DNA of 64,000 nt from Deltaproteobacteria bacterium (GTDB lineage Bacteria; Desulfobacterota; Binatia; HRBIN30; JACQVA1). A program made the position numbers and the translations under genes. Each line of letters starts with the position of its first letter. Position 1 is the first letter of the stretch. Shown here piece after piece: positions 32,529-46,320 of this stretch. The notes under the pieces were generated by a model. That model had not been told where the DNA came from. It worked only from the letters and a program-made list of their open reading frames with translations, and made no database searches. The stretch spans positions 1-64,000 of the forward strand of contig JACQVA010000147.1 of assembly GCA_016210005.1 (NCBI GenBank), given 5' to 3'.

Positions 32529-33782
32529 CTATGGGGGCGTCTTACGCAAGCTCTCGCGGTTAATGAACGCGATCAGGTCGGCCATTTCCTGTCCGTCCAA
32601 GTGCGGCCACCGAACTCCGCGCTCGGCCATTTGACTGAGCATGGCCGGCCCGTACCGCCACATGACATGGGCCATGAGAATGGGTGACGCGTTCCCCTTG
32701 ATCGGACCCAGGTTCGGCCCAGTGCGGCCGCCCGCGGTATCGTGAATGGCGTGGCACATCACGCACTGCTTTGAGAAGAACACCTTGCGCCCCGCGTCCG
32801 GGTCGCCCTCGCTGAGGAAATACCGTCGAGTCAGCAAGTAAGTCGTGATGTCCGCCATCTCCTGCGCCGTGAGGTCCACGGCGGTCAGATTCCGCCTGCG
32901 AATCTCTTGCTGCATCTTCGGGGCGTGATTCCACATCCGCGTGGCAATACCCGACAAGCTGTTTGCCAGCTCGGTTCTCAGCAAGTCGGGCCCGACTCCC
33001 GGCGCGCCGCCCATCGTGTGGCAGGAGCCGCAACCGCGCGCTTCGAACAGCTTCTCCCCCCGCGCCGCGGAGCCAGGCTCGATGTACTCCTTCGCCTCGC
33101 CCGCCGTCCGGGAGCGAATATAGGCGACGATGTTATTCAAGTCTTGGCCGCTGAACTGCGGCCAAGCGATCCCCATGGATGCCATCCTCTCCTTCATCTC
33201 GGTGGCATGTTTCCACATCTTTTGTGCCCACACGACCGGGTTGACGAAGCGGGTCCACTTGGCGAGATCGGGCCCGACTGTTCCGCCCTGCGCGTCGATG
33301 GAATGGCAGGTATCGCACTTGTGCTTGGCCAAGAGGCTCTTGCCCTCAACCGGGTCGCCCGGCTCGTCGGCGTACCGAATGAACAGCAGGAAGGCGAACA
33401 AGTGGCTCATCTCCTCGGGCGAGATGGGGATCAGCCGGATCCCGCCTTCCTCCATCTTCTCCCACATGCGCGGCACGTGGTTCCACATCGTCGCCGCGAG
33501 CTGGCCGGCGGTAACGTGCCCGAAAGCCCGGGTTCGCCCTAGATCCGGTCCGACCTCCCCACCCTCGCCCCACACAGCATGACAGCGCATGCAGTTCTTC
33601 TCGCGGAACAGCTCCCAGCCCATCTCCGCGTCGCCGGTGAAGATCTTCTCTTTGGCCTCGCGGGCGACCCGACCCAATTCCTGCTCGCCCGAGTTGGGTT
33701 GCGGCTCCACATCCTGGGCCAACCCTGGCCTCACCAGGACCGCCGGTGCAAGGAGGAGAAGGGCGACGAGGACCGCTCTCAT
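32529..33782 (-). CDS. Tetraheme cytochrome made of four tandem c-type domains
   Basis: A 417-residue exported protein. A signal peptide (MRAVLVALLLLAPAVLVRPG) is followed by four class I cytochrome c-like units. Their CxxCH motifs are at about residues 64 (CMRCH), 156 (CDTCH), 251 (CGSCH) and 340 (CVMCH), spaced 89-95 residues apart. Each unit has a GPDL or GPNL turn and a conserved MW-(N/K/R)-x segment (MWNHVPRM, MWKHATEM, MWNHAPKM, MWRYGPAM) that could supply the distal Met. I chose ATG 33782 because it overlaps the stop of the NrfD-like gene (ATGA) and opens a signal peptide. As the last gene of the operon, it is the likely electron acceptor or donor for the membrane complex. Confidence 0.92.
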   Translation of the reverse strand: MRAVLVALLLLAPAVLVRPGLAQDVEPQPNSGEQELGRVAREAKEKIFTGDAEMGWELFREKNCMRCHAVWGEGGEVGPDLGRTRAFGHVTAGQLAATMWNHVPRMWEKMEEGGIRLIPISPEEMSHLFAFLLFIRYADEPGDPVEGKSLLAKHKCDTCHSIDAQGGTVGPDLAKWTRFVNPVVWAQKMWKHATEMKERMASMGIAWPQFSGQDLNNIVAYIRSRTAGEAKEYIEPGSAARGEKLFEARGCGSCHTMGGAPGVGPDLLRTELANSLSGIATRMWNHAPKMQQEIRRRNLTAVDLTAQEMADITTYLLTRRYFLSEGDPDAGRKVFFSKQCVMCHAIHDTAGGRTGPNLGPIKGNASPILMAHVMWRYGPAMLSQMAERGVRWPHLDGQEMADLIAFINRESLRKTPP

Positions 33783-35188
33783 GCCAGACCTCCCTCGGTC
33801 GCAGCAACGGTGATGCCGCCGCGCGCTGCGGCGTCCTGGGCTGGTAGATCGGGCAGATAACCCGCGACCCGTTCCGTCAACTCCTTCGTGGCGTTCATCC
33901 GACCTTCCTGGATTTCCCAGATGGAAACGATCGGGAAGAAGCGAGTGAACAACACGTAGAGCAGGATGAAGAAGCAAAAACACCCGGTGAGGATGGACCA
34001 CTCGACCCAGGTGGGGTGGTAGATGCCGCGGTCCAGCGGCAGGCGCGGGTTGGAGACGGTGGGCACGACGATGACGAAGCGTTCCAGCCACATGCCGATC
34101 GTGATGGCGATCGAGGCGACGACGGTGCCCGCAACCGTGCGGGTCTTCCGCCGCGTGAGGATCATCATGGGAATGACGAAGCAGCAGGCGAACATTGTCC
34201 AGAACTGCGGCGAGTACTTGCCGGAAACCTTCGACCACCACACCGCCATGTGGATGGGCTCGGCCCCGTACCAGGTTGTCAGATACTCTGCGAACGTGAA
34301 GTAGAACCACAGCAAGGTCATCACCAGGAGCAGGATGCCGAGGTAGTCGAAGTGGACCTGCTTGAGGTAGCCTTCGAGGTGATAGGCCCAGCGAATGATT
34401 GCCATGGCGATGATCAACGCGGCGATGCCGCTGAAGATGGCGCCGACGACGAAGTAGGGACCGAAAATGGCGGCGTGCCACATGGGTTGGAGCGTCATGG
34501 CGAAGACGAACGACACCACGGTGTGCACGGAGACCGCGATCGGAATCACGATCACCATGAGCACGCCGATGCCTTTTTCGAGGAGGCGGTGCTGCCCGGG
34601 CGTGCCTTGCCACCCGAGCGCGAGGATGCGGTACAGCCAGCGTCGCCGGTTCGCTTGGTCGCGGAGAATGGCGATGTCGGGAATCAGCGGCAGGTACAGA
34701 TAGATGGTGCTGCACGTCAGATAGACGCTGATGGAACACACGTCCCACAGCAGCGGCGATTGGAGGCGCCCGTGCGTGACGACGAAGTAGGCGCGGTCGG
34801 GACGGCCGAGGTCGAAGATGACGTTGCTCACGCCGAAGACAATCACCATCACGGTGATCACCTCGGCCGAGCGGGTGATCGCCCGCCGCCACTCGGCGTT
34901 GGCGAGTCGCAGGATCGCGGAGATCAGTGTGCCCGCGTGGCTGATGCCGATGAAGAACACGAAGTTGATGATGTAGATGCCCCAGTAGACCGGCCGGTTC
35001 ATCCCCGTCACGCCGAGGCCGGTGCGCACTTGATGAATGTAGGCCGTCGCGCCGAGGGCGATGCCGGCGAGCAGCACCCCGACGACGAACCAGAAGCGTG
35101 GGTTGGATTCGACGATCGGCTTGACCAGCGCCCAGTCTGGGCCGAGCGGATCGGTGGGCCTGGGCATATGCTTGTGGTGTGAGTTCAC
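33779..35188 (-). CDS. ActC/NrfD-like quinone-interacting membrane subunit
   Basis: A 469-residue polytopic protein with about ten hydrophobic segments, of the NrfD/PsrC superfamily. The segments around NFVFFIGISHAGTLISAILR, RAITRSAEVITV, LQSPLLWDVCSISVYLTCST and FGPYFVVGAIFSGIAAL match the longer ten-helix ActC/QrcD type rather than the eight-helix NrfD type. This family exchanges electrons with menaquinone or ubiquinone on the periplasmic side and has been proposed to move protons. The start is GTG 35188, overlapping the stop of the Fe-S subunit (GTGA). Its ATGA stop couples it to the tetraheme cytochrome. Confidence 0.92.
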   Translation of the reverse strand: MNSHHKHMPRPTDPLGPDWALVKPIVESNPRFWFVVGVLLAGIALGATAYIHQVRTGLGVTGMNRPVYWGIYIINFVFFIGISHAGTLISAILRLANAEWRRAITRSAEVITVMVIVFGVSNVIFDLGRPDRAYFVVTHGRLQSPLLWDVCSISVYLTCSTIYLYLPLIPDIAILRDQANRRRWLYRILALGWQGTPGQHRLLEKGIGVLMVIVIPIAVSVHTVVSFVFAMTLQPMWHAAIFGPYFVVGAIFSGIAALIIAMAIIRWAYHLEGYLKQVHFDYLGILLLVMTLLWFYFTFAEYLTTWYGAEPIHMAVWWSKVSGKYSPQFWTMFACCFVIPMMILTRRKTRTVAGTVVASIAITIGMWLERFVIVVPTVSNPRLPLDRGIYHPTWVEWSILTGCFCFFILLYVLFTRFFPIVSIWEIQEGRMNATKELTERVAGYLPDLPAQDAAARGGITVAATEGGLA

Positions 35189-35877
35189 TGGCCGCGCCCC
35201 TCTCGCAAGTAGACAACTTTCGGCTCTGTCCCCAGATCTTCCATGAGCCGAAAGGCCCGCTTGGAACGCGCCAGCTTGGAGACTTCAGTGTCTGGATCTT
35301 GGAGGTTGCCGAATACCATCGCTTTGGTGGGGCATGCCTCGACGCAGGCGGGGGTGTATTCGCCCGGCAGCAGATCCCGGCCCTCCGCCTTCGCGGTGTC
35401 GCGCGCCTTCATCAAGCGATGGTTGCAGAACGTGCACTTTTCGACCACGCCCTTGTAGCGGACGGAGACGTCGGGATTGGTGCCATCCCGATAGGGATCG
35501 GGCACGTCGGGTGGATACCAGTTGAACTGGCGCACGGTGTAGGGGCACGCGTTGGTACAGTACCGGCAACCGATGCAGCGCGAGTAGACCTGCCCGACGA
35601 TCCCTTCCGACTCACTGAAAAACGTCGCGCCAACGGGGCAGACCTTGATGCACGGCGGATGTTCGCAGTGCTGGCACATCATCGGCAGCAGCGTGAGCGT
35701 TGTGTGGGGGTACTCCCCTTCGTACAGCGGCATCATGTCGATCCATCGAATGGAGCGGCTCTCGCCGGCGAGTGTCGGAGTCGATGGGGGCACGTTGTTC
35801 TCCTGATGACAGGCGGTGACACATCCCTGGCACGCCGTGCACCGATTGAGATCGATCACCATCCCCCAGCGGGCCAT
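35185..35877 (-). CDS. Four-cluster ferredoxin-type iron-sulfur subunit
   Basis: A 230-residue DmsB/PsrB-type electron-transfer subunit with cysteine sets for four Fe-S clusters: CTACQGCVTAC (from residue 13), CQHCEHPPCIKVCP, CIGCRYCTNACP and CTFC ... CVEACP. It has no signal peptide and would be exported folded with the Tat-targeted molybdopterin subunit. I chose ATG 35877 (MARWGMVIDLNRCTAC) because AGGAGA lies 7 bases upstream and because it falls ten bases after the stop of the upstream gene. It should wire the catalytic subunit to the NrfD-like membrane subunit. Confidence 0.94.
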   Translation of the reverse strand: MARWGMVIDLNRCTACQGCVTACHQENNVPPSTPTLAGESRSIRWIDMMPLYEGEYPHTTLTLLPMMCQHCEHPPCIKVCPVGATFFSESEGIVGQVYSRCIGCRYCTNACPYTVRQFNWYPPDVPDPYRDGTNPDVSVRYKGVVEKCTFCNHRLMKARDTAKAEGRDLLPGEYTPACVEACPTKAMVFGNLQDPDTEVSKLARSKRAFRLMEDLGTEPKVVYLREGRGQ

Positions 35878-35887
35878 CCCGGTCTCC

Positions 35888-38179
35888 TCAGGCCAGACGC
35901 TCGAGGCGCACAAACGTCGGCTCCCGCCGCACGCGCCGCACATCGCTGCCGGGTTCCGTCTTGACCAGACGCAAGGGGTTGGTGCCGATCCCCGCCGCGT
36001 AGCGCCCGCCGTGCACCCGTCCGCCACCCGAATGAACGGCGATGACATCGGGCCGAATGCCCGGGGACACGCGCACCCGAACGGTCACCTCGCCGCGGTC
36101 GTTCTTGATCTTGATGCTATCACCCTGTGTGAGGCCGAGATGCTCGGCGGTCTTGGGATTGATCTCCGCGCTGGTGACCCAGCTCATCTGCCACAGCGGC
36201 GACCCGAGGTCCTGCAGGTACGGCAACGATCCACCGCCGCGGGTAGTCAGCGTCAACTCCGGATACACGTACAATAAGAGCCGGCCGGCTTCGGGGCTCT
36301 CCACGCCGCTGGGAACCTGCGACTTGGTCGAGAACTCCGCGGCCTGCAGGTTGATCCGGTGATCTGCAGGCGGAACCACCCGCCGCCACTCGCCATAGTA
36401 GTAGGCGGGATCCCACCAGCCGCCGTGTGCTTCCATCTCTGCTTGGAGCTCTTGCGCGGTGTGATAGGAGACCGCGCGCCAGCCGCTGCGTTCGAGCAAC
36501 TGCGTCCACGTGGAGCGATGGCGGCCCGAGAACGAGTCGCCGACGCCGGAACGAAGCAGCAGCTCGATCCGGTCCTTCGTGACCTCGTCGTAGCTCTGCC
36601 ACGGAAACTGCTGGGCAACCCGCCCACCGACGGCCTTGGCCAGGGTGAGCACGACATCCGCCATGTTGCGCGAGTCGGCGCGCGGCTTTGCCGCCGGCGG
36701 GCTGGTCGAGACGACCGGCTGGCCGCTGCCGTCGACCGTGAGGTGATCGCAGCGCCGCTCCAGCCATAAGCTGCTCGGCAGGACGAGGTTCGCCAGGGCG
36801 GCCGTGTCGTTCATAACTGCCGACGCCGACACCACGAACGGGATCTTGCGCAGAGCCTCTGCGAGTCTGTCGCCCTCTGGGCTGCTGAAGACGGGATCGG
36901 CCTCGTGCACGAAGCAGACGTCAATGGGCGGCGACTTGGATTGCAGCACCCATTCGGTCAGCTCCTCGACGGTGGGAGAGCGATGCGCTCGGACGCTCCC
37001 GTCGGCGGGCGGCCCGGCGGGTTCGTCGAGGTCGTCGAAGGGGGCGCGCCGCGCGAGCAGGACTCCGCCGGGAACGTCGATGGCCCCCGCGATGGCATTG
37101 AGCGTGTGCACCGCGATGGCGTCGAACGTCTGGAAGGACGTGTCCCCGTGAAAGGGCCCGATCGCCAGCGGACGCCGGGCGGAGCCGAAACGACGAGCGA
37201 CACGGATGATCTGGTCCGAATCCGCACCGGTCAGCTCGGCCACTCGCTGTGGCGGGAATTCACGCAAGATCCACGACCGAATACCGCTATGCTGGACACC
37301 CGCCTCGTCGGTCCAGTCCTCCAGCCCGGTGACATGGTCGCGCAGGAACTCGCTCCTGGAGTAGCCTTCCTTGATGAGCATGTGGGCGATGCCGAGGGCG
37401 AAGATGCCGGCGGTGCCGGGACGGATCGGCAGCCACTCGTCCGCCTTGCCGCCGGTGACACCCAGACGCGGCCCCGCATGAGCGAAATACCCGCCGGCCG
37501 AGCGCATGTCGGCGAAGCTTCGGTGCAGGCTCATGGTGTTCGACGACGATTCCAGCAGCCCGCTGTCGAGCGACAGCAGAACCTCCGCATTCGCGAGGTC
37601 ATAAACGAGCCGCCCGCTCGTCCCGTGCATCTGTTGGAGAACCTCTTCCATCGCTTGCTCGGCCGGCGACTTCATGTCGACAACCCAGGACGAGCCTGCC
37701 GCACGGGCCAGACGCCCCAGCAATTGAGAGGTAATGTCCTGACCGTCACCGCGGATCACCGCCACGCGACCAGGGCTGACGGCGACGGCTTGCAGCCGAC
37801 TGGCGACGCCATTGATCGCCTCGCCCCACGAGATCCGCGCCCAGCCGCCGATGACGCTGCGATCGCGCTGCAGCGGACCCGCCAGACGATCGGGATCGTA
37901 GTACAGCTGAAGGCTCGCCGCGCCGCGTGCGCACAGGCCGCCGCGGTTGGTGGGGTGGAAGGCGTTGCCGGACACGGTTACGGGCTGACCGTTCACCAAC
38001 CGCACCCGTAGACCGCAGCCCGACGAACACAGCTGGCAGATGCTGTTGGCCCACGACTCTTCCCTGGCTAGGATCAGCGGCGCCGGGCGCGTCGGGTTTG
38101 AACAACCCAGCAGGGGACCGAAGCTGATGAGCGTCGCGCCGCCGACGCCGCCGAGCAGGAACTCTCTTCGGTTCAGCAT
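35888..38179 (-). CDS. Tat-exported molybdopterin oxidoreductase-family subunit (ActB1/QrcB/PsrA-like)
   Basis: A 763-residue member of the DMSO-reductase superfamily. The N-terminus has a twin-arginine motif (NRREFLLGG) and a possible lipobox (FGPLLGC, Cys26). An intact FS0 cluster set follows (Cys48, 51, 55 and 83: CQLCSSGC ... GGLCARG). The segment where the metal ligand is expected reads VLLSLDSGLLESSSNTMSLH; it contains serines but no Cys, so Mo/W binding is uncertain. C-terminal dinucleotide-binding features are present (INPKTAEHLGLTQGDSIKIK). The gene lies between the pentaheme cytochrome and the Fe-S subunit. In alternative complex III and Qrc complexes the homologue has lost the metal, while PsrA-type enzymes keep it. 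The substrate cannot be stated. Confidence 0.9.
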   Translation of the reverse strand: MLNRREFLLGGVGGATLISFGPLLGCSNPTRPAPLILAREESWANSICQLCSSGCGLRVRLVNGQPVTVSGNAFHPTNRGGLCARGAASLQLYYDPDRLAGPLQRDRSVIGGWARISWGEAINGVASRLQAVAVSPGRVAVIRGDGQDITSQLLGRLARAAGSSWVVDMKSPAEQAMEEVLQQMHGTSGRLVYDLANAEVLLSLDSGLLESSSNTMSLHRSFADMRSAGGYFAHAGPRLGVTGGKADEWLPIRPGTAGIFALGIAHMLIKEGYSRSEFLRDHVTGLEDWTDEAGVQHSGIRSWILREFPPQRVAELTGADSDQIIRVARRFGSARRPLAIGPFHGDTSFQTFDAIAVHTLNAIAGAIDVPGGVLLARRAPFDDLDEPAGPPADGSVRAHRSPTVEELTEWVLQSKSPPIDVCFVHEADPVFSSPEGDRLAEALRKIPFVVSASAVMNDTAALANLVLPSSLWLERRCDHLTVDGSGQPVVSTSPPAAKPRADSRNMADVVLTLAKAVGGRVAQQFPWQSYDEVTKDRIELLLRSGVGDSFSGRHRSTWTQLLERSGWRAVSYHTAQELQAEMEAHGGWWDPAYYYGEWRRVVPPADHRINLQAAEFSTKSQVPSGVESPEAGRLLLYVYPELTLTTRGGGSLPYLQDLGSPLWQMSWVTSAEINPKTAEHLGLTQGDSIKIKNDRGEVTVRVRVSPGIRPDVIAVHSGGGRVHGGRYAAGIGTNPLRLVKTEPGSDVRRVRREPTFVRLERLA

Positions 38180-38185
38180 GGCCGG

Positions 38186-38680
38186 TCACCTGTGGCAGTG
38201 GATGCAATCTTGCGTCGCGCCACGCGTCCGATGGCACGCGAGGCACCAGTCCATGCTCTGCGTCACGAGCGGATAGGATGCCGGCACCGCGAGACTCGCC
38301 ACCGCGCCGTGGCACTGCCCGCACTCGACTCCGGCCACGGCCACGTGTCGGCGGTGCGAGAAATAGACGTGGTCAGGGAGCTGGTAGATACGTCGCCACG
38401 GAATCTCCTCCCCCTTATCCGCGTACTGCCGCACTTTTTCCTCTTCGGGGCTGTCCGTGAAGGCCGCCAGATGGCACATCATGCACGTGTCCTTTGTTGG
38501 CACGGTGGCTGCGGCCGCTTTCTCGACCGACTGGTGACACGCATCACACGCGAGGCCCTTCTCGATATGGGCCTTGTGACTGAACTGAATCGGCTGGACG
38601 ACAGCCGGCGGCAAGTCGCAGGCGCCGAGCAACAGTCCAGCCGCCAGCAGCGAATGTACGCGCGTCACTTGGAGGAGCAT
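38186..38680 (-). CDS. Pentaheme c-type cytochrome lipoprotein (ActA/QrcA-like)
   Basis: A 164-residue protein with a lipoprotein signal (LLAAGLLLGAC, Cys21) and five CxxCH heme sites at about residues 45, 66, 120, 146 and 159 (CDACH, CMMCH, CGQCH, CLACH, CIHCH). Additional histidines in SHKAH and SHRRH could be distal ligands, as in cytochrome c7/c3-type folds. ActA of alternative complex III is a pentaheme cytochrome and QrcA is hexaheme. Position (first gene of the operon) and heme count fit an ActA-like role. The next gene starts 6 bases after its stop. Confidence 0.93.
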   Translation of the reverse strand: MLLQVTRVHSLLAAGLLLGACDLPPAVVQPIQFSHKAHIEKGLACDACHQSVEKAAAATVPTKDTCMMCHLAAFTDSPEEEKVRQYADKGEEIPWRRIYQLPDHVYFSHRRHVAVAGVECGQCHGAVASLAVPASYPLVTQSMDWCLACHRTRGATQDCIHCHR

Positions 38681-40200: not shown

Positions 40201-43200
40201 TTACGGCCTCAGCCGGAAGAACAAATGCACGCCGTGCACGGTGGCCTGGTAGAGTGTACCGTCGCGGCGCAGGTCGGGTGCGGGAATCCCGCGCACCGTT
40301 CCGATGCCCGGATCTTCACCGTACACGAGCGGCGGCGTGAGGTGCTCGGGCGAGCCGATGGGCACGGACAGCTTGACGCTGAAGAGCTCGCGCCTGTTGG
40401 AGCCGTTCACATCGGAAACCTCCGCCACCGACATGCCGGTCACCGGACAGCAGGGGTCGTACCAGGCGGGGTTCCAACGGATCGTCGGCCGTGCGGGATT
40501 GCCCGAAAGGCAGACGGTGGCCGCATCGGGATGGCTGATCCGCAGGTTATATTCGCTGGTGAAATCCGCCTCGCCGAGGGGGATCGTCGTGACATAGCGG
40601 TACGGGGCGCCTTGGACTATGTCGAACCAGACCAGATCGCTCTGGCACTCGTCGTTTGCGCGGTACATGTAAGTGACACCAGTCCAGTTGCTGGAGACGA
40701 CGCCGGGGTAGCGGATGTTGTAGCGGAACGACGTCGTAGCCAGGCCGAGCTTGGCGACGCTGATGATGACGTCGCCGGTTGGGACTCCGGTGATCTCGAA
40801 CTTCCCGTTGATGTCGGTTAGCCCTTCGCCCACCAGCTGCCGACTCGGGTCCAAGACCGACACCCTGGCAGCGGGGACATACCCGTCCGCCTGCAATCCC
40901 GCATACTTGACGTCCCCGGTCACACCCGTTAACGGCGTCGGCGTGCGCGTCCGCGTCGCAGTGCCTCCGGGTGCGGTCGGGGTCGGTGTGGCGCTGGGTA
41001 CGATGGCCGTGGGCGCCGGCTCGACGAAGAACTCCAACAGGTTCGACGATGCGCTGTTGCCGCCCTCGTCGAAGGCCTCGGCGCGGGCATAGAGATGGCC
41101 GTCGCTGAAGGCCTCGGCGCGCTTGAGGCTCAGCGTCCACTGGCGCGAACACGAGCCGGTGCGCCCGCACGGCAGCTCGGCGGGAAGATCGAGCGTGCCC
41201 GCGGGCTCGCCCGTTGCCGTCAGGACGATTCGGGTGAGCGCCCCGGTGTCGGTGGCGGTTGCCTTGAACTTGATGAAGCCGCCGGCCCGGAGATCGCTCT
41301 CCACCGTGCTGAGCGACACCGCCGGCGCGCCCGTATCCGCCACCGTGATCGCCAACGGCGCGATGGTGTCGGCAACGAAGGTATCACTGTCAGTTAGCGC
41401 TTCTGCTCGAATGCGTGCCGTGCCGAGACGTTTGGCGAGCACGGTGACGATGCCCAGCTCGGGATCGTCTTGCTGGATTTCGATCGCGTCGCTGTCCGTC
41501 CGCCATTGGTACTTGAAGCCCGACCCCGGCGAACTGGGGATGTCGCCGATATTGGGCTGCGCGATCGCGGTGCAGAGCGTCGATTGCCGATTCGCCGGAT
41601 CGCTGGAGAACTCGATCTCCGTCCGGCCGCAGGCGATCACCAGGCCCGTGGCCGCGCTGGCGATCTGGATCTCCGAGGGCTCCTCGCTTTCGAGGGTGCC
41701 GACCCGGACCTTGACGTCGTAGTGGTCGGGCGGCACCAGCGGGATGGTTACACGCGCCCGTTCTGCGTTGAGCGGCGCCCGCGGCGCCGACGCCTCGATA
41801 CGGTGCACGCCCGGCGGCGGCGGATTGGAGACCTGGCGCGTGAACAGCGCCCGCCCCGTGCACCCGAGCGTGCCCCGCACTAACAGCGAACGCGCCTCGC
41901 GCGAGGTGGCGGGCTCGCTCGGGACGTCGAGTAGCTCGGGTTGAATCGCGCTGCGCAAGCCGCCCAGGCCGATCAAGCCGCTGAGCTCCGAGTACGTGAA
42001 GCGGATCGGCCCGCAAAGGCCGACGCGGTCGGGGATACGATAGTCGTAGAAGCCGTCACCCGAATCCTCAGGACTGCGATGGATCAGGCCGCGGCCGAGA
42101 TCCATGATCAGATCGTCCTCTTCGAACAGGCCGAAGCTCTTGTGGAACACGCGGACCGAGCCGCCGGCGGTCGGGTAGTTGCGGGCGTTGCCGGCGGCGT
42201 CGCTGAACGCGACCTTGGTCACCATGCCGATCTTCGCCTCGACTCGATCGCCCAGCGCTTTGAGTTCATCGGCGAGGATCGTGCCGAGGCGCGCCATCTC
42301 GGCGCGGGCTTGGTCGAAGGCTGCGGCCACCAACGGATCGAGCGTGCGCTTCAACCGGCCGGCGGCATCGAGAACGCGGGACAGCTCGGCGTACACCTCG
42401 GCGGCGCGCTGCAGCTTGTCGCGCTCGCTGATGGCCGTGCTCACGAGATCGGGCAGCAGCGCCTTCAATCGCTCCGGCAGGCCGGAGGATTCGATGGCAT
42501 GATCGAGCGCGGCCCAGCCTGCATGTTCCGGGTCACGCAACAAGGCCGCGAACTGCCGCACTGCACTCTGATACGCCTGAATCTGGTCACGGATCAGGGG
42601 AATGAGGGCAATGATGTTGGCCGCTGTTCCCTCCTCGGCTGCGCCCCCTTCGCCCAAAGTTTCGAGGTCCAGTGCGAGCAGCAACTCCGAGCTTTGATCG
42701 ACCACATCGAGCGTCCCTGCCGCGTTGTCGACGACGCCGATGCTCTGTTCGGCACTCACTGTGATTCGCAGCGGGGGACCCGCAACGTCTCCCGCCAGCA
42801 CGACCGCGTCGGTCGGGCCGGGTTCCATCTCCGGCACGACGACACGCAGCGCGCCGGTTCCTTCCCGCCCGATGACCTCGGCTTCGACGCCGTTGAAGGC
42901 GACGCGATCGAGAGCCTCGTTGGCGCCGAGATTGACCACGTCGACGAGAACCACCGAGAAGGGCCAAATGGCCGGCGCCGTCACCGGGCGCACTGCCGTC
43001 GCGCGCGGCGCCGATGGCGGGGGCGGACACTCGCCGAAAATGCAGCCGGCCGTGCACTCGAGGTCGGCGGTGGTGATGCGACCATCGCGATTGCAATCGT
43101 CGTTGCCGCACGCGCCGGCGCCGGCCACGGCGCGCGCGGCGGCGAGCAGATCGGCCGCTACGACGTCGATGCTACAGTCGCTATCGCCGCGCGGATAGAA

Positions 43201-46200
43201 GTCGCGGTCGTCGGGGTCGACGGTTGCGGTCGGTGTGGGCGAGGGCACCGTCGCGGTCTTGCTCGGCGTCTGCGTGATCGTCGGCGTCGGCATCGTCGCC
43301 GTACGCGTCGGAGTGCGTGAGCGCGTCGGAGTGGGAAAAGTGGGCGTCTTGGTTGGAGTCCGCGACGGCGTGTGCGTGCGCGTCGGCGGCACCGTGGCGC
43401 CCGGGGTCAAGCTCGTGACGGTGAAGTCCGCGCTGGCGGTGTTGTTGGCCTCGGCGGTCTCGGGCACTTCGTCGACAAAATCGAGGTCCCACTGCAGCGT
43501 ATGACCCCCGGGGTTGAACTTCAGACCGGCGCCGCACCAATGCGTGACGCGCGCGGAGGTGGTCGTGTAGGTCGCGCGGCACCACTCGAACCCGCCCTCG
43601 CGCGCCCGCAACTGCACCGTGACCGGCTCGGTCGCGCCGCTGATGCTCCAGGTGAAATGGGCGAAGACGCGCTCGTCCTGCGTCGCCGTCGTGACTTCGT
43701 CGCCGCTGTTGGCCCCAGTGCGCAGGAACGCCCGCTCGGCGATCAGATCGACTTGTGCGGCCGCGGTCGCCGTGCTGGTCTCGGCGATGTTGTTGCCTTC
43801 GTCGGTCTCGCCGACCGTGTTGTCGTAGTCGATCTCCCAGCGCAGCGTGTGCGCGCCCGGCAGCACGCGCCAGTTGCGCTTGCACGACGAAGTGTAGGCG
43901 TCGCCCGTGGCGGCGGTGTGCTGGCACGAGCACAACACGGCGCCGTCGAGCAGTGCGCGCTGGTTCACGGCCACCGGCCCACCGGTTCCGGTCACACGCC
44001 AGTCGGCGTGCGCGTACATGCGCTGGTAGGGTTCCGGCGTCGTGATGTCGCTGCCGCCCGCGGCGCTGGCCGAGCGCCAGTAGGCGCGCTCGGCGGCGAG
44101 GTCGACCGTGCCGCTGCTCCAGGTGGTCGAGGCCGAGTTGTTGCTCTCGTTGGTTTCCGGCACGGCCCCGGTGTGGTCAACATCCCAGCGCAGCGTGTGC
44201 GTGCCTGCCGTCGCCGTCCAACCTTGCGTGCACCCAATCGTATAGAGGCCCGGCCCTTTGTCGACACTCCCGGCACAGAACTGGGTGCCGTCGAGCGAGG
44301 CGCGAACCGAGATGCTGGTCTGGCGGTCGGGACCGACGACTTGCAAGTCGAAGTGGAAGTAAACGGTTTGCCCGGTGCTCGGCGTGACTACTTCGACGCC
44401 GGCGTTGCTCGCGGTCTTCAGAAAGGCGCGCTGGGCAACGAAGTCGAAGCCGTTCGAACTGGCCCAGGTCGCCGAGGCCGAGTTGTTGCCTTCGTCGCTT
44501 TCGCTGACGCGGTGGTCGTAGTCGAACTCCCAACGCAAGGTGTGGGTACCCGAGGCCACGCGCCAGCTCGCGTTGCAGAAGATGACGCCGCCCTCACCGC
44601 CTGAGACCTCGAACGACGCGGTGCAGAAGGTCGTGCCGTCGCGCACGGCACGGGCGGAGATCGTGATCGGACCGCCGCTGCCGTCGACCCGCCAGTCGGC
44701 GTGGAAGTAGACGTTCTGGCCGATGGTGGGGATGGGCAACTCATCGCCGGCATCTTGCCCGGTGCGCAAGTAGGCGCGCTCGGCAACAACGTCCAGCGCC
44801 GCACCACCGCCGTTGGCGGGCGCGGCCGTTCGCTTGATTATACCGGCGTGCTCGGGGCGGGGCTCGGTCTTTGCGCTCGGGCGCCGCACGACCCCAATCC
44901 CGCCAGCGCCGGCCGCTCCGGCCTCTGCGGGCGGACCCGCACTCGCCGCGCCGCCGGCGATCGGCGCAGTAGTGCAGTCGCCGGGCAGTACTTGCAGCGC
45001 GGCATCGAGGTCAATGCGGGGTATCGTCACCCCATTGCGCGGATCGGCGACGGGGACGCCGCTGCTCTGGAGTAGCGTGAGGATCGAGTCGACCGTTGCG
45101 CTCGGATTGGCTTGCCGCAACACCGCCCACGCGCCGGCCACGTGTGGCGCCGCCATCGAGGTCCCCGACGAAAACCGAAAGCCGCCGCCGAGGGCCGCTG
45201 AATTGATGTGGTCGCCGGGCGCCAACAGGCTCAGAAACGCCGCCGAGTTCGAGAAGCCCGCAATCGTGTCCGACTTGGTAGTGGCACCGACGCTCACTGC
45301 GCTCGACACGCAGGCGGGGGTGCCGAGGCCGTCGGTGTAGAAGCTGTTGCCGGAGGCCGCCACGGCGGCGATGCCGGCCGAGCGCAAGGTGTCGATGATG
45401 GCTTTGTAAGCAGCCGAGTCATGGTCGCAGGTTGCCTGCGAAGTGTATTTCCCTCCCGACAAGCTCAGGTTGGCGGCGGCGATCGCGTAGGTTGTTCGCA
45501 GCGCATACACATGTTCGAGCGCCGCGATAACATCGGAGACAGTGGTGCGATAGCACGGGTCTTCACCGGTACCTTCGCATTCGCTGCCTGTCATCCGGGA
45601 GAAGACCTGGATCGCGACAATTGAGGCGTCGCGGGCGACGCCGGCGAAATCGGGGCCGCTACCCGCCGCAATACCCGCCACGTGCGTACCGTGATTGCAG
45701 GTCAGCGGACCGTCGCAGGGGACCGCTGCACCCGCGCCCGTCTGCGTGGTTGCGCTGTTGGGACAGAGGGACTTCTTCGAGAAGCATGCTTCGGCGACCA
45801 CCTTGCCGCTGACAAACGGATGCGTGCTCTCGACGCCGGTATCGAGGATCGCGACAGTCTGGCCCGCGCCGGTCAGGCCGTCCTGCCACGCGATGTCGCC
45901 GCCGAGGAGCGGGACGCTTTCGACGAGTGCCGGATCAAGCAGTGCATCTTCGGTGATCGAAGAAACCTCAGGCTGCGCTGCGAGCGCAGCTAGCCCGTCC
46001 GGCGTCGCTTCGAGCGCCAGGTACGCAATGACCTCGAACTGACGAACCAGCCGGTATGATGCCGCGGGCAGATTGGCGAGTACCCCATGCTGTGCTCGGC
46101 GGATGCGGGCACGTTGATCGGCGATAGCCGCGGCGCCGCGAACGTATCCCTCGGGTTGCGTTGCCGCGGCCAGGCCCACAATCACCGGCGCCGTGCCGTG

Positions 46201-46320
46201 TTGCGCGGCGCGTGCACGCAGGTCCGGCCGTACGCGCGGCTCGGCCGCCACACTCACGATCGGACCCGGCAACGCCAGGAACAGCGCGCTGGCACGGATG
46301 AATGCTTGCCACGGCCGCAT
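40201..46320 (-). CDS. Giant secreted subtilisin-like serine protease with CARDB repeats and Thr/Pro linker
   Basis: A 2039-residue multidomain exported protein. A signal peptide (about 1-26) and an inhibitor_I9-like propeptide precede an S8 protease domain with a full triad: D160 in VAILDTGVESTHPF, H210 in NHGTHVAGIAAG, S388 in SGTSMAAPHVAG and oxyanion N325 in AASGNS. About residues 510-955 hold four CARDB-like repeats (AERAYLRTG ... HTLRWEFDYDHRVSES). A Thr/Pro linker and a dockerin-like EF-hand segment (SDCSIDVVAADLLAAARAVA) follow. Then come an IPT-like domain, a helical stretch (ERLKALLPDLVSTAISERDK), Ig-like regions and a carboxypeptidase-regulatory-like domain near the end (LTDINGKFEITGVPTGDVII). 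It is likely a surface or extracellular protease. Base composition matches its neighbours. Confidence 0.93.
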   Translation of the reverse strand: MRPWQAFIRASALFLALPGPIVSVAAEPRVRPDLRARAAQHGTAPVIVGLAAATQPEGYVRGAAAIADQRARIRRAQHGVLANLPAASYRLVRQFEVIAYLALEATPDGLAALAAQPEVSSITEDALLDPALVESVPLLGGDIAWQDGLTGAGQTVAILDTGVESTHPFVSGKVVAEACFSKKSLCPNSATTQTGAGAAVPCDGPLTCNHGTHVAGIAAGSGPDFAGVARDASIVAIQVFSRMTGSECEGTGEDPCYRTTVSDVIAALEHVYALRTTYAIAAANLSLSGGKYTSQATCDHDSAAYKAIIDTLRSAGIAAVAASGNSFYTDGLGTPACVSSAVSVGATTKSDTIAGFSNSAAFLSLLAPGDHINSAALGGGFRFSSGTSMAAPHVAGAWAVLRQANPSATVDSILTLLQSSGVPVADPRNGVTIPRIDLDAALQVLPGDCTTAPIAGGAASAGPPAEAGAAGAGGIGVVRRPSAKTEPRPEHAGIIKRTAAPANGGGAALDVVAERAYLRTGQDAGDELPIPTIGQNVYFHADWRVDGSGGPITISARAVRDGTTFCTASFEVSGGEGGVIFCNASWRVASGTHTLRWEFDYDHRVSESDEGNNSASATWASSNGFDFVAQRAFLKTASNAGVEVVTPSTGQTVYFHFDLQVVGPDRQTSISVRASLDGTQFCAGSVDKGPGLYTIGCTQGWTATAGTHTLRWDVDHTGAVPETNESNNSASTTWSSGTVDLAAERAYWRSASAAGGSDITTPEPYQRMYAHADWRVTGTGGPVAVNQRALLDGAVLCSCQHTAATGDAYTSSCKRNWRVLPGAHTLRWEIDYDNTVGETDEGNNIAETSTATAAAQVDLIAERAFLRTGANSGDEVTTATQDERVFAHFTWSISGATEPVTVQLRAREGGFEWCRATYTTTSARVTHWCGAGLKFNPGGHTLQWDLDFVDEVPETAEANNTASADFTVTSLTPGATVPPTRTHTPSRTPTKTPTFPTPTRSRTPTRTATMPTPTITQTPSKTATVPSPTPTATVDPDDRDFYPRGDSDCSIDVVAADLLAAARAVAGAGACGNDDCNRDGRITTADLECTAGCIFGECPPPPSAPRATAVRPVTAPAIWPFSVVLVDVVNLGANEALDRVAFNGVEAEVIGREGTGALRVVVPEMEPGPTDAVVLAGDVAGPPLRITVSAEQSIGVVDNAAGTLDVVDQSSELLLALDLETLGEGGAAEEGTAANIIALIPLIRDQIQAYQSAVRQFAALLRDPEHAGWAALDHAIESSGLPERLKALLPDLVSTAISERDKLQRAAEVYAELSRVLDAAGRLKRTLDPLVAAAFDQARAEMARLGTILADELKALGDRVEAKIGMVTKVAFSDAAGNARNYPTAGGSVRVFHKSFGLFEEDDLIMDLGRGLIHRSPEDSGDGFYDYRIPDRVGLCGPIRFTYSELSGLIGLGGLRSAIQPELLDVPSEPATSREARSLLVRGTLGCTGRALFTRQVSNPPPPGVHRIEASAPRAPLNAERARVTIPLVPPDHYDVKVRVGTLESEEPSEIQIASAATGLVIACGRTEIEFSSDPANRQSTLCTAIAQPNIGDIPSSPGSGFKYQWRTDSDAIEIQQDDPELGIVTVLAKRLGTARIRAEALTDSDTFVADTIAPLAITVADTGAPAVSLSTVESDLRAGGFIKFKATATDTGALTRIVLTATGEPAGTLDLPAELPCGRTGSCSRQWTLSLKRAEAFSDGHLYARAEAFDEGGNSASSNLLEFFVEPAPTAIVPSATPTPTAPGGTATRTRTPTPLTGVTGDVKYAGLQADGYVPAARVSVLDPSRQLVGEGLTDINGKFEITGVPTGDVIISVAKLGLATTSFRYNIRYPGVVSSNWTGVTYMYRANDECQSDLVWFDIVQGAPYRYVTTIPLGEADFTSEYNLRISHPDAATVCLSGNPARPTIRWNPAWYDPCCPVTGMSVAEVSDVNGSNRRELFSVKLSVPIGSPEHLTPPLVYGEDPGIGTVRGIPAPDLRRDGTLYQATVHGVHLFFRLRP

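Follow-up and report, generated by a model that had tools for sequence, protein, structure and literature searches.

A conserved five-gene operon of the ACIII-Qrc superfamily that carries a four-domain cytochrome c

ACIII and Qrc are built from similar parts and run in opposite directions, and what sets the direction is an unsettled question. A five-gene operon in a 64,000-nucleotide stretch of contig JACQVA010000147.1 (the whole stretch is hereafter the window) bears on this question. Does it encode a quinol:cytochrome c oxidoreductase, a complex that reduces quinone, or a working Mo/W enzyme? The genes, in the order of transcription, are as follows.

38186..38680, minus strand: gene A, pentaheme c-type cytochrome lipoprotein, ActA/QrcA-like, 164 aa, with five CXXCH motifs and the lipobox LLLGAC
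35888..38179, minus strand: gene B, Tat-signal protein of MopB fold, QrcB/ActB1-like, 763 aa, with the twin-arginine motif NRREFLL and Pfam matches to Molybdopterin and Molybdop_Fe4S4
35185..35877, minus strand: gene C, Fe-S subunit, QrcC/ActB2-like, 230 aa, with 16 Cys in four cluster motifs
33779..35188, minus strand: gene D, NrfD/ActC-like quinone-binding integral membrane subunit, 469 aa (Pfam NrfD, E=3e-34)
32529..33782, minus strand: gene E, four-domain cytochrome c with a signal peptide, 417 aa, with Cytochrom_C repeats and four CXXCH motifs

A sequence-only reading of the window had described these five genes as coupled by overlaps or gaps of 10 bases or less, and all of them were found at the coordinates above. 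Running from 38680 to 32529 on the minus strand, they are separated by gaps of 6 and 10 bases and then joined by two 4-base overlaps. Gene E is contained in the list of open reading frames as an overlong frame of 895 aa, and its start is most likely at 33782. The GC content of the operon (0.648) is close enough to that of the remaining window (0.670) to give no sign of a foreign insert, and a promoter and terminator scan of the operon gave results at chance level. The adjoining genes encode other functions. Downstream lie a phospholipid-methyltransferase-family gene and a gene whose sequence we take to be AddB-like, and the upstream neighbour is, presumably, an EngB-type GTPase, a name also read from the sequence. 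No equivalent of actD or actF is found among these window neighbours, as had been noted. Also upstream, at 40201-46320 of the minus strand, the translation reads as a subtilase-like protein of 2039 aa, in which domains are repeated and linkers are rich in threonine and proline.

The same gene order, which the sequence-only reading had suggested looking for in other genomes, is widespread. We scanned 395 genomes of the phylum for the four-domain cytochrome, which revealed further families whose loci were then read. Among the loci read, the A-B-C-D-E order is present in 19 genomes from nine families, the present genome and 18 further ones, and a recurrence of this extent argues that the arrangement is not due to chance. 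A close form of the operon is found in 4 of 147 other genomes of the class. The closest relatives with an identical gene order are G097 (the Glo_18 MAG, whose locus is the same contig and was counted once), G096, G093 and G098; L036, a locus among the closest relatives, has 55-83% identity per subunit. Multiheme cytochromes (c554-type and 13-heme) adjoin the operon in the four closest relatives. The window operon has housekeeping neighbours with no partner cytochrome alongside, and a search of the present genome for such flanking multiheme cytochromes yielded weak matches to one of them only.

Whether subunit B could be catalytic depends on its metal site. In an alignment with ArrA, PhsA, QrcB and ActB, the position at which ArrA and PhsA carry the Mo/W ligand Cys is occupied by Ala173 in gene B, a residue that is none of the metal ligands Cys, Sec, Ser or Asp. 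None of the five window-clade members has the ligand Cys, nor do the remaining loci of A-B-C-D-E order or any ActB or QrcB row. The Mo/W site is thus lost in gene B, insofar as cofactor content can be read from the ligand residue. This loss, shared by relatives of the same order and by ActB and QrcB, disfavours the second option of the sequence-only reading, namely a genuine Mo/W enzyme feeding quinone. We consider a substrate-oxidising Mo/W enzyme in subunit B highly improbable, even though the best PDB neighbours of B, both by fold (predicted model, mean pLDDT 83.6) and by sequence, are the catalytic ArrA and PsrA, and even though its FS0 motif is intact (C48-X2-C51-X3-C55-X27-C83). Gene B has its closest clades in ActB and QrcB, neither of which holds the cofactor, and most QrcB proteins scoring over the NCBIfam cut-off, like ActB of the present class, have a full set of FS0 cysteines too. 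FS0, which had been put forward as a distinguishing feature, is therefore indeed intact but cannot serve as a diagnostic, because QrcB and ActB have it too.

Two other loci of the same genome touch on this subject. A second A-B-C-D-type operon (L037, 8149-13864 of contig C225) encodes a MopB protein that keeps the Mo/W-ligand Cys (DHESLCTTG), in an ACIII-Qrc clade that is otherwise free of this ligand; the Cys is missing in its nearest relative, in G008 (47%), and in the other class relatives aligned. It may be a functional enzyme from near the origin of ACIII and Qrc, or else a regained site, and this paralogue is arguably of more interest than the window operon. On contig C22 (L042, 5561-12663) lies an ACIII cluster consisting of a pentaheme ActA, a 932-aa fused ActB, ActC, a monoheme ActE-like protein and an ActF-like protein. 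The fused ActB scores 648 bits to 6lod_B and has intact FS0 cysteines, which are lacking in the solved ActB1 chains aligned.

We found that the resemblance to ACIII and Qrc pointed out from the sequence reflects a relationship. In a careful tree of the catalytic-type subunits, ActB, QrcB and all relatives fall into a single clade (100/98), next to which stands that of ArrA. The window clade is sister to ActB (100/96) and lies outside both ActB and QrcB (each 100/100), so the phylogeny of the 763-residue subunit, proposed earlier as a check, places it inside neither. Approximate placement is all that should be read from this, since AU tests allow alternatives, rejecting neither a clade of the window with QrcB (p=0.32) nor one of types I-IV all together (p=0.35), and since the gene D tree groups differently; the position as sister to ActB is not fixed. 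Sequence comparison thus supports membership of the operon in the ACIII-Qrc superfamily, outside the clades of ActB and QrcB.

The curated families point towards Qrc for three of the subunits. Qrc families are the top matches of genes A, B and C, and no ActB model is among the NCBIfam matches of the operon proteins, yet every score is below the equivalog cut-off: 94 bits (E=7e-27) against 180 for QrcA, 324 bits against 440 for QrcB, and 281 bits (E=8e-84) against 400 for QrcC. Gene A also matches ActA chains of ACIII in the PDB (8k9e_A, E=7e-29). The contrast drawn earlier between a pentaheme subunit here and a hexaheme in Qrc does not hold, because the QrcA homologues examined also carry five CXXCH motifs, and we rejected heme number as a discriminator. 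Gene C keeps all 16 Cys, as QrcC does, whereas ActB2 has Thr at the column of position 104 (four ActB2 domains of the class aligned).

These likenesses favour a reading in which the complex runs in the Qrc direction, with a periplasmic cytochrome donating electrons through E and A and the C-D module reducing menaquinone. The AU test that leaves a window and QrcB clade unrejected fits it, as does Asp126 of subunit D, which aligns with QrcD Asp120, and iron-oxidiser ACIII-like clusters have been proposed, in the part of the source available, to hand electrons to quinone (PMC4643136). We nonetheless regard this direction as unlikely, on account of subunit D. Gene D matches ActC (6f0k_C) with E=6e-78 over 400 residues and reaches only 49 bits against NCBIfam QrcD, with an equivalog cut-off of 570. 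The D70 and Y110 residues reported as essential in QrcD (PMC13059093) are F76 and I116 in gene D, and the gene D tree separates it, together with ActC, from QrcD (100/100), the window protein grouping with relatives that accompany four-domain cytochromes (97/98). Of the residues named for the half-channels and quinol pocket of R. marinus ActC (PMC5928083), gene D is identical at 14/14 in the cytoplasmic half-channel, 4/6 in the periplasmic one and 6/9 in the pocket. Three pocket residues differ, two of which are charged in ActC (His139, here Asp126, and Asp253, here Val228). As these two charges differ and Asp126 matches its QrcD counterpart, the pocket by itself would be compatible with either direction. 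Membership of the operon in Qrc proper was rejected on subunit D and on the scores under the NCBIfam cut-offs.

Domain alignment divides gene E into four tandem class-I-like domains with one CXXCH each, in agreement with the tandem four-domain terminal cytochrome seen in the sequence-only reading. The CXXCH motifs and Met106/196/290/381 are invariant in 18 homologues. The model has a mean pLDDT of 84, and in a fold search its best match was at E=0.01, with no structure of the same four-domain layout. The gene is often present in two copies per operon among the A-B-C-D-E loci; in families f5 and f24 (L079, L120, L121, L162, L163, L170), two adjacent four-domain cytochrome genes follow subunit D. 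In ACIII the heme wire of ActA continues into ActE (PMC5928083); in F. johnsoniae, aa3 activity does not require ActE (PMC8552683).

The latter result is consistent with an arrangement that would fit either direction, in which the complex consists of A-D and E, co-transcribed by chance, is a soluble carrier apart from it. So are the signal peptide of E without any membrane anchor, its number of one or two copies per operon, and the paralogue that accompanies another NrfD system on contig C12. However, E overlaps D by 4 bases and directly follows it in 19 genomes, and we find a separate carrier rather doubtful. The paralogue (L041, 8322-13183 of contig C12; 36% identity) has as neighbours an NrfD, an Fe-S protein and two cytochromes, one with four hemes and one with a single heme. 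No MopB subunit is encoded there, and the locus represents a second use of the four-domain cytochrome, with an NrfD module.

On balance, the combined findings make it reasonably probable that the product of the operon is an ACIII-like quinol:cytochrome c oxidoreductase with a MopB scaffold and with E in place of ActE. Of the two functions first suggested, this is the better one, the Mo/W enzyme feeding quinone having failed at Ala173. We infer assembly into one complex, its direction, its energy coupling, the role of E and the acceptor. The ActC-like subunit D would oxidise (mena)quinol at the periplasmic face, and the electrons would travel by way of first the Fe-S subunit C and next the five hemes of lipoprotein A to E, in which four heme domains would stand in for the single heme of ActE. 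E may relay or store electrons for periplasmic cytochromes and periplasmic multiheme partners. Subunit B, of MopB fold and devoid of a Mo/W centre, would serve as a scaffold, perhaps with one [4Fe-4S] cluster (FS0) retained. Since a fused-ActB ACIII is also present in the genome, the window complex probably serves a second acceptor route, other than that of the fused-ActB complex. More tentatively, the operon could represent a third branch of ACIII-Qrc, common across the phylum, that combines ActC-type and 16-Cys QrcC-type modules with a loss of Mo/W independent of that in ActB and QrcB and with a four-domain cytochrome as a hub to extracellular or multiheme acceptors.

With ActC-type and QrcC-type features mixed, the window branch is natural material for the question of direction. 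New in the present analysis are the distribution of the arrangement, the clade-wide loss of the metal ligand and the combination of an ActC-type D with a QrcC-type C; the four-domain cytochrome variant, previously the subject of a single brief mention, is now seen in at least nine families, in some cases as two copies. For annotation, such clusters should be treated with caution as neither Mo enzymes nor a canonical complex III.

Compared with known systems, the window operon shares with ACIII (actABCDEF) the pentaheme A, an ActB without Mo/W and an ActC with matching half-channel residues. It differs in its split B, in the lack of ActD or ActF, in its four-domain E, in the 16 Cys of C (Thr at one position in ActB2) and in the intact FS0, the solved ActB1 chains aligned being without those cysteines. 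The split ActB, the missing actF and the tandem cytochrome, noted earlier as marks of a distinct complex, are all present but fall within published variation of ACIII. In the portions of the sources available, ACIII lacking some of ActD, ActF and ActE are described (PMC12342949, PMC8552683), iron oxidisers have split ActB1/ActB2 with the same FS0 spacing, CX2CX3CX27C, in ActB1 (PMC4643136), and the act clusters of Nitrospirales lack ActF and ActG and likewise have B split in two (PMC12342949). The clusters described for these two groups include actE, and a four-domain cytochrome is not reported in those portions (PMC4643136, PMC12342949). The closest precedent is ACIII-like cluster 4 of the MBNT15 bacterium SHF-111, mentioned in one sentence in 2022, with ActABCD plus an ActE-like protein with four hemes, not one (PMC9386147), which thus shares the A, B, C and D genes and a four-heme gene with the window. 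Family f43 loci (L164, L166, L169) show A-B-C-D-E together with a counter-oriented FeS-NrfD-multiheme operon, fitting that description, and f43 may therefore correspond to MBNT15; its MopB is only about 28% identical to that of the window. Qrc (QrcABCD) has a multiheme A, a Mo-free B, a 16-Cys C and four core subunits in identical order, but D of the window is not QrcD and the qrc loci retrieved contain no four-domain cytochrome. ArrAB and PsrABC share the MopB fold of subunit B and are its nearest solved structures, whereas in the window the ligand Cys is lost and the pentaheme A and cytochrome E are added. With split-ActB, ActF-less and four-heme ActE-like variants all published, the architecture is already on record, though biochemically uncharacterised, and the window operon appears to encode a recurring variant of it, a real and conserved member of the ACIII-Qrc superfamily.
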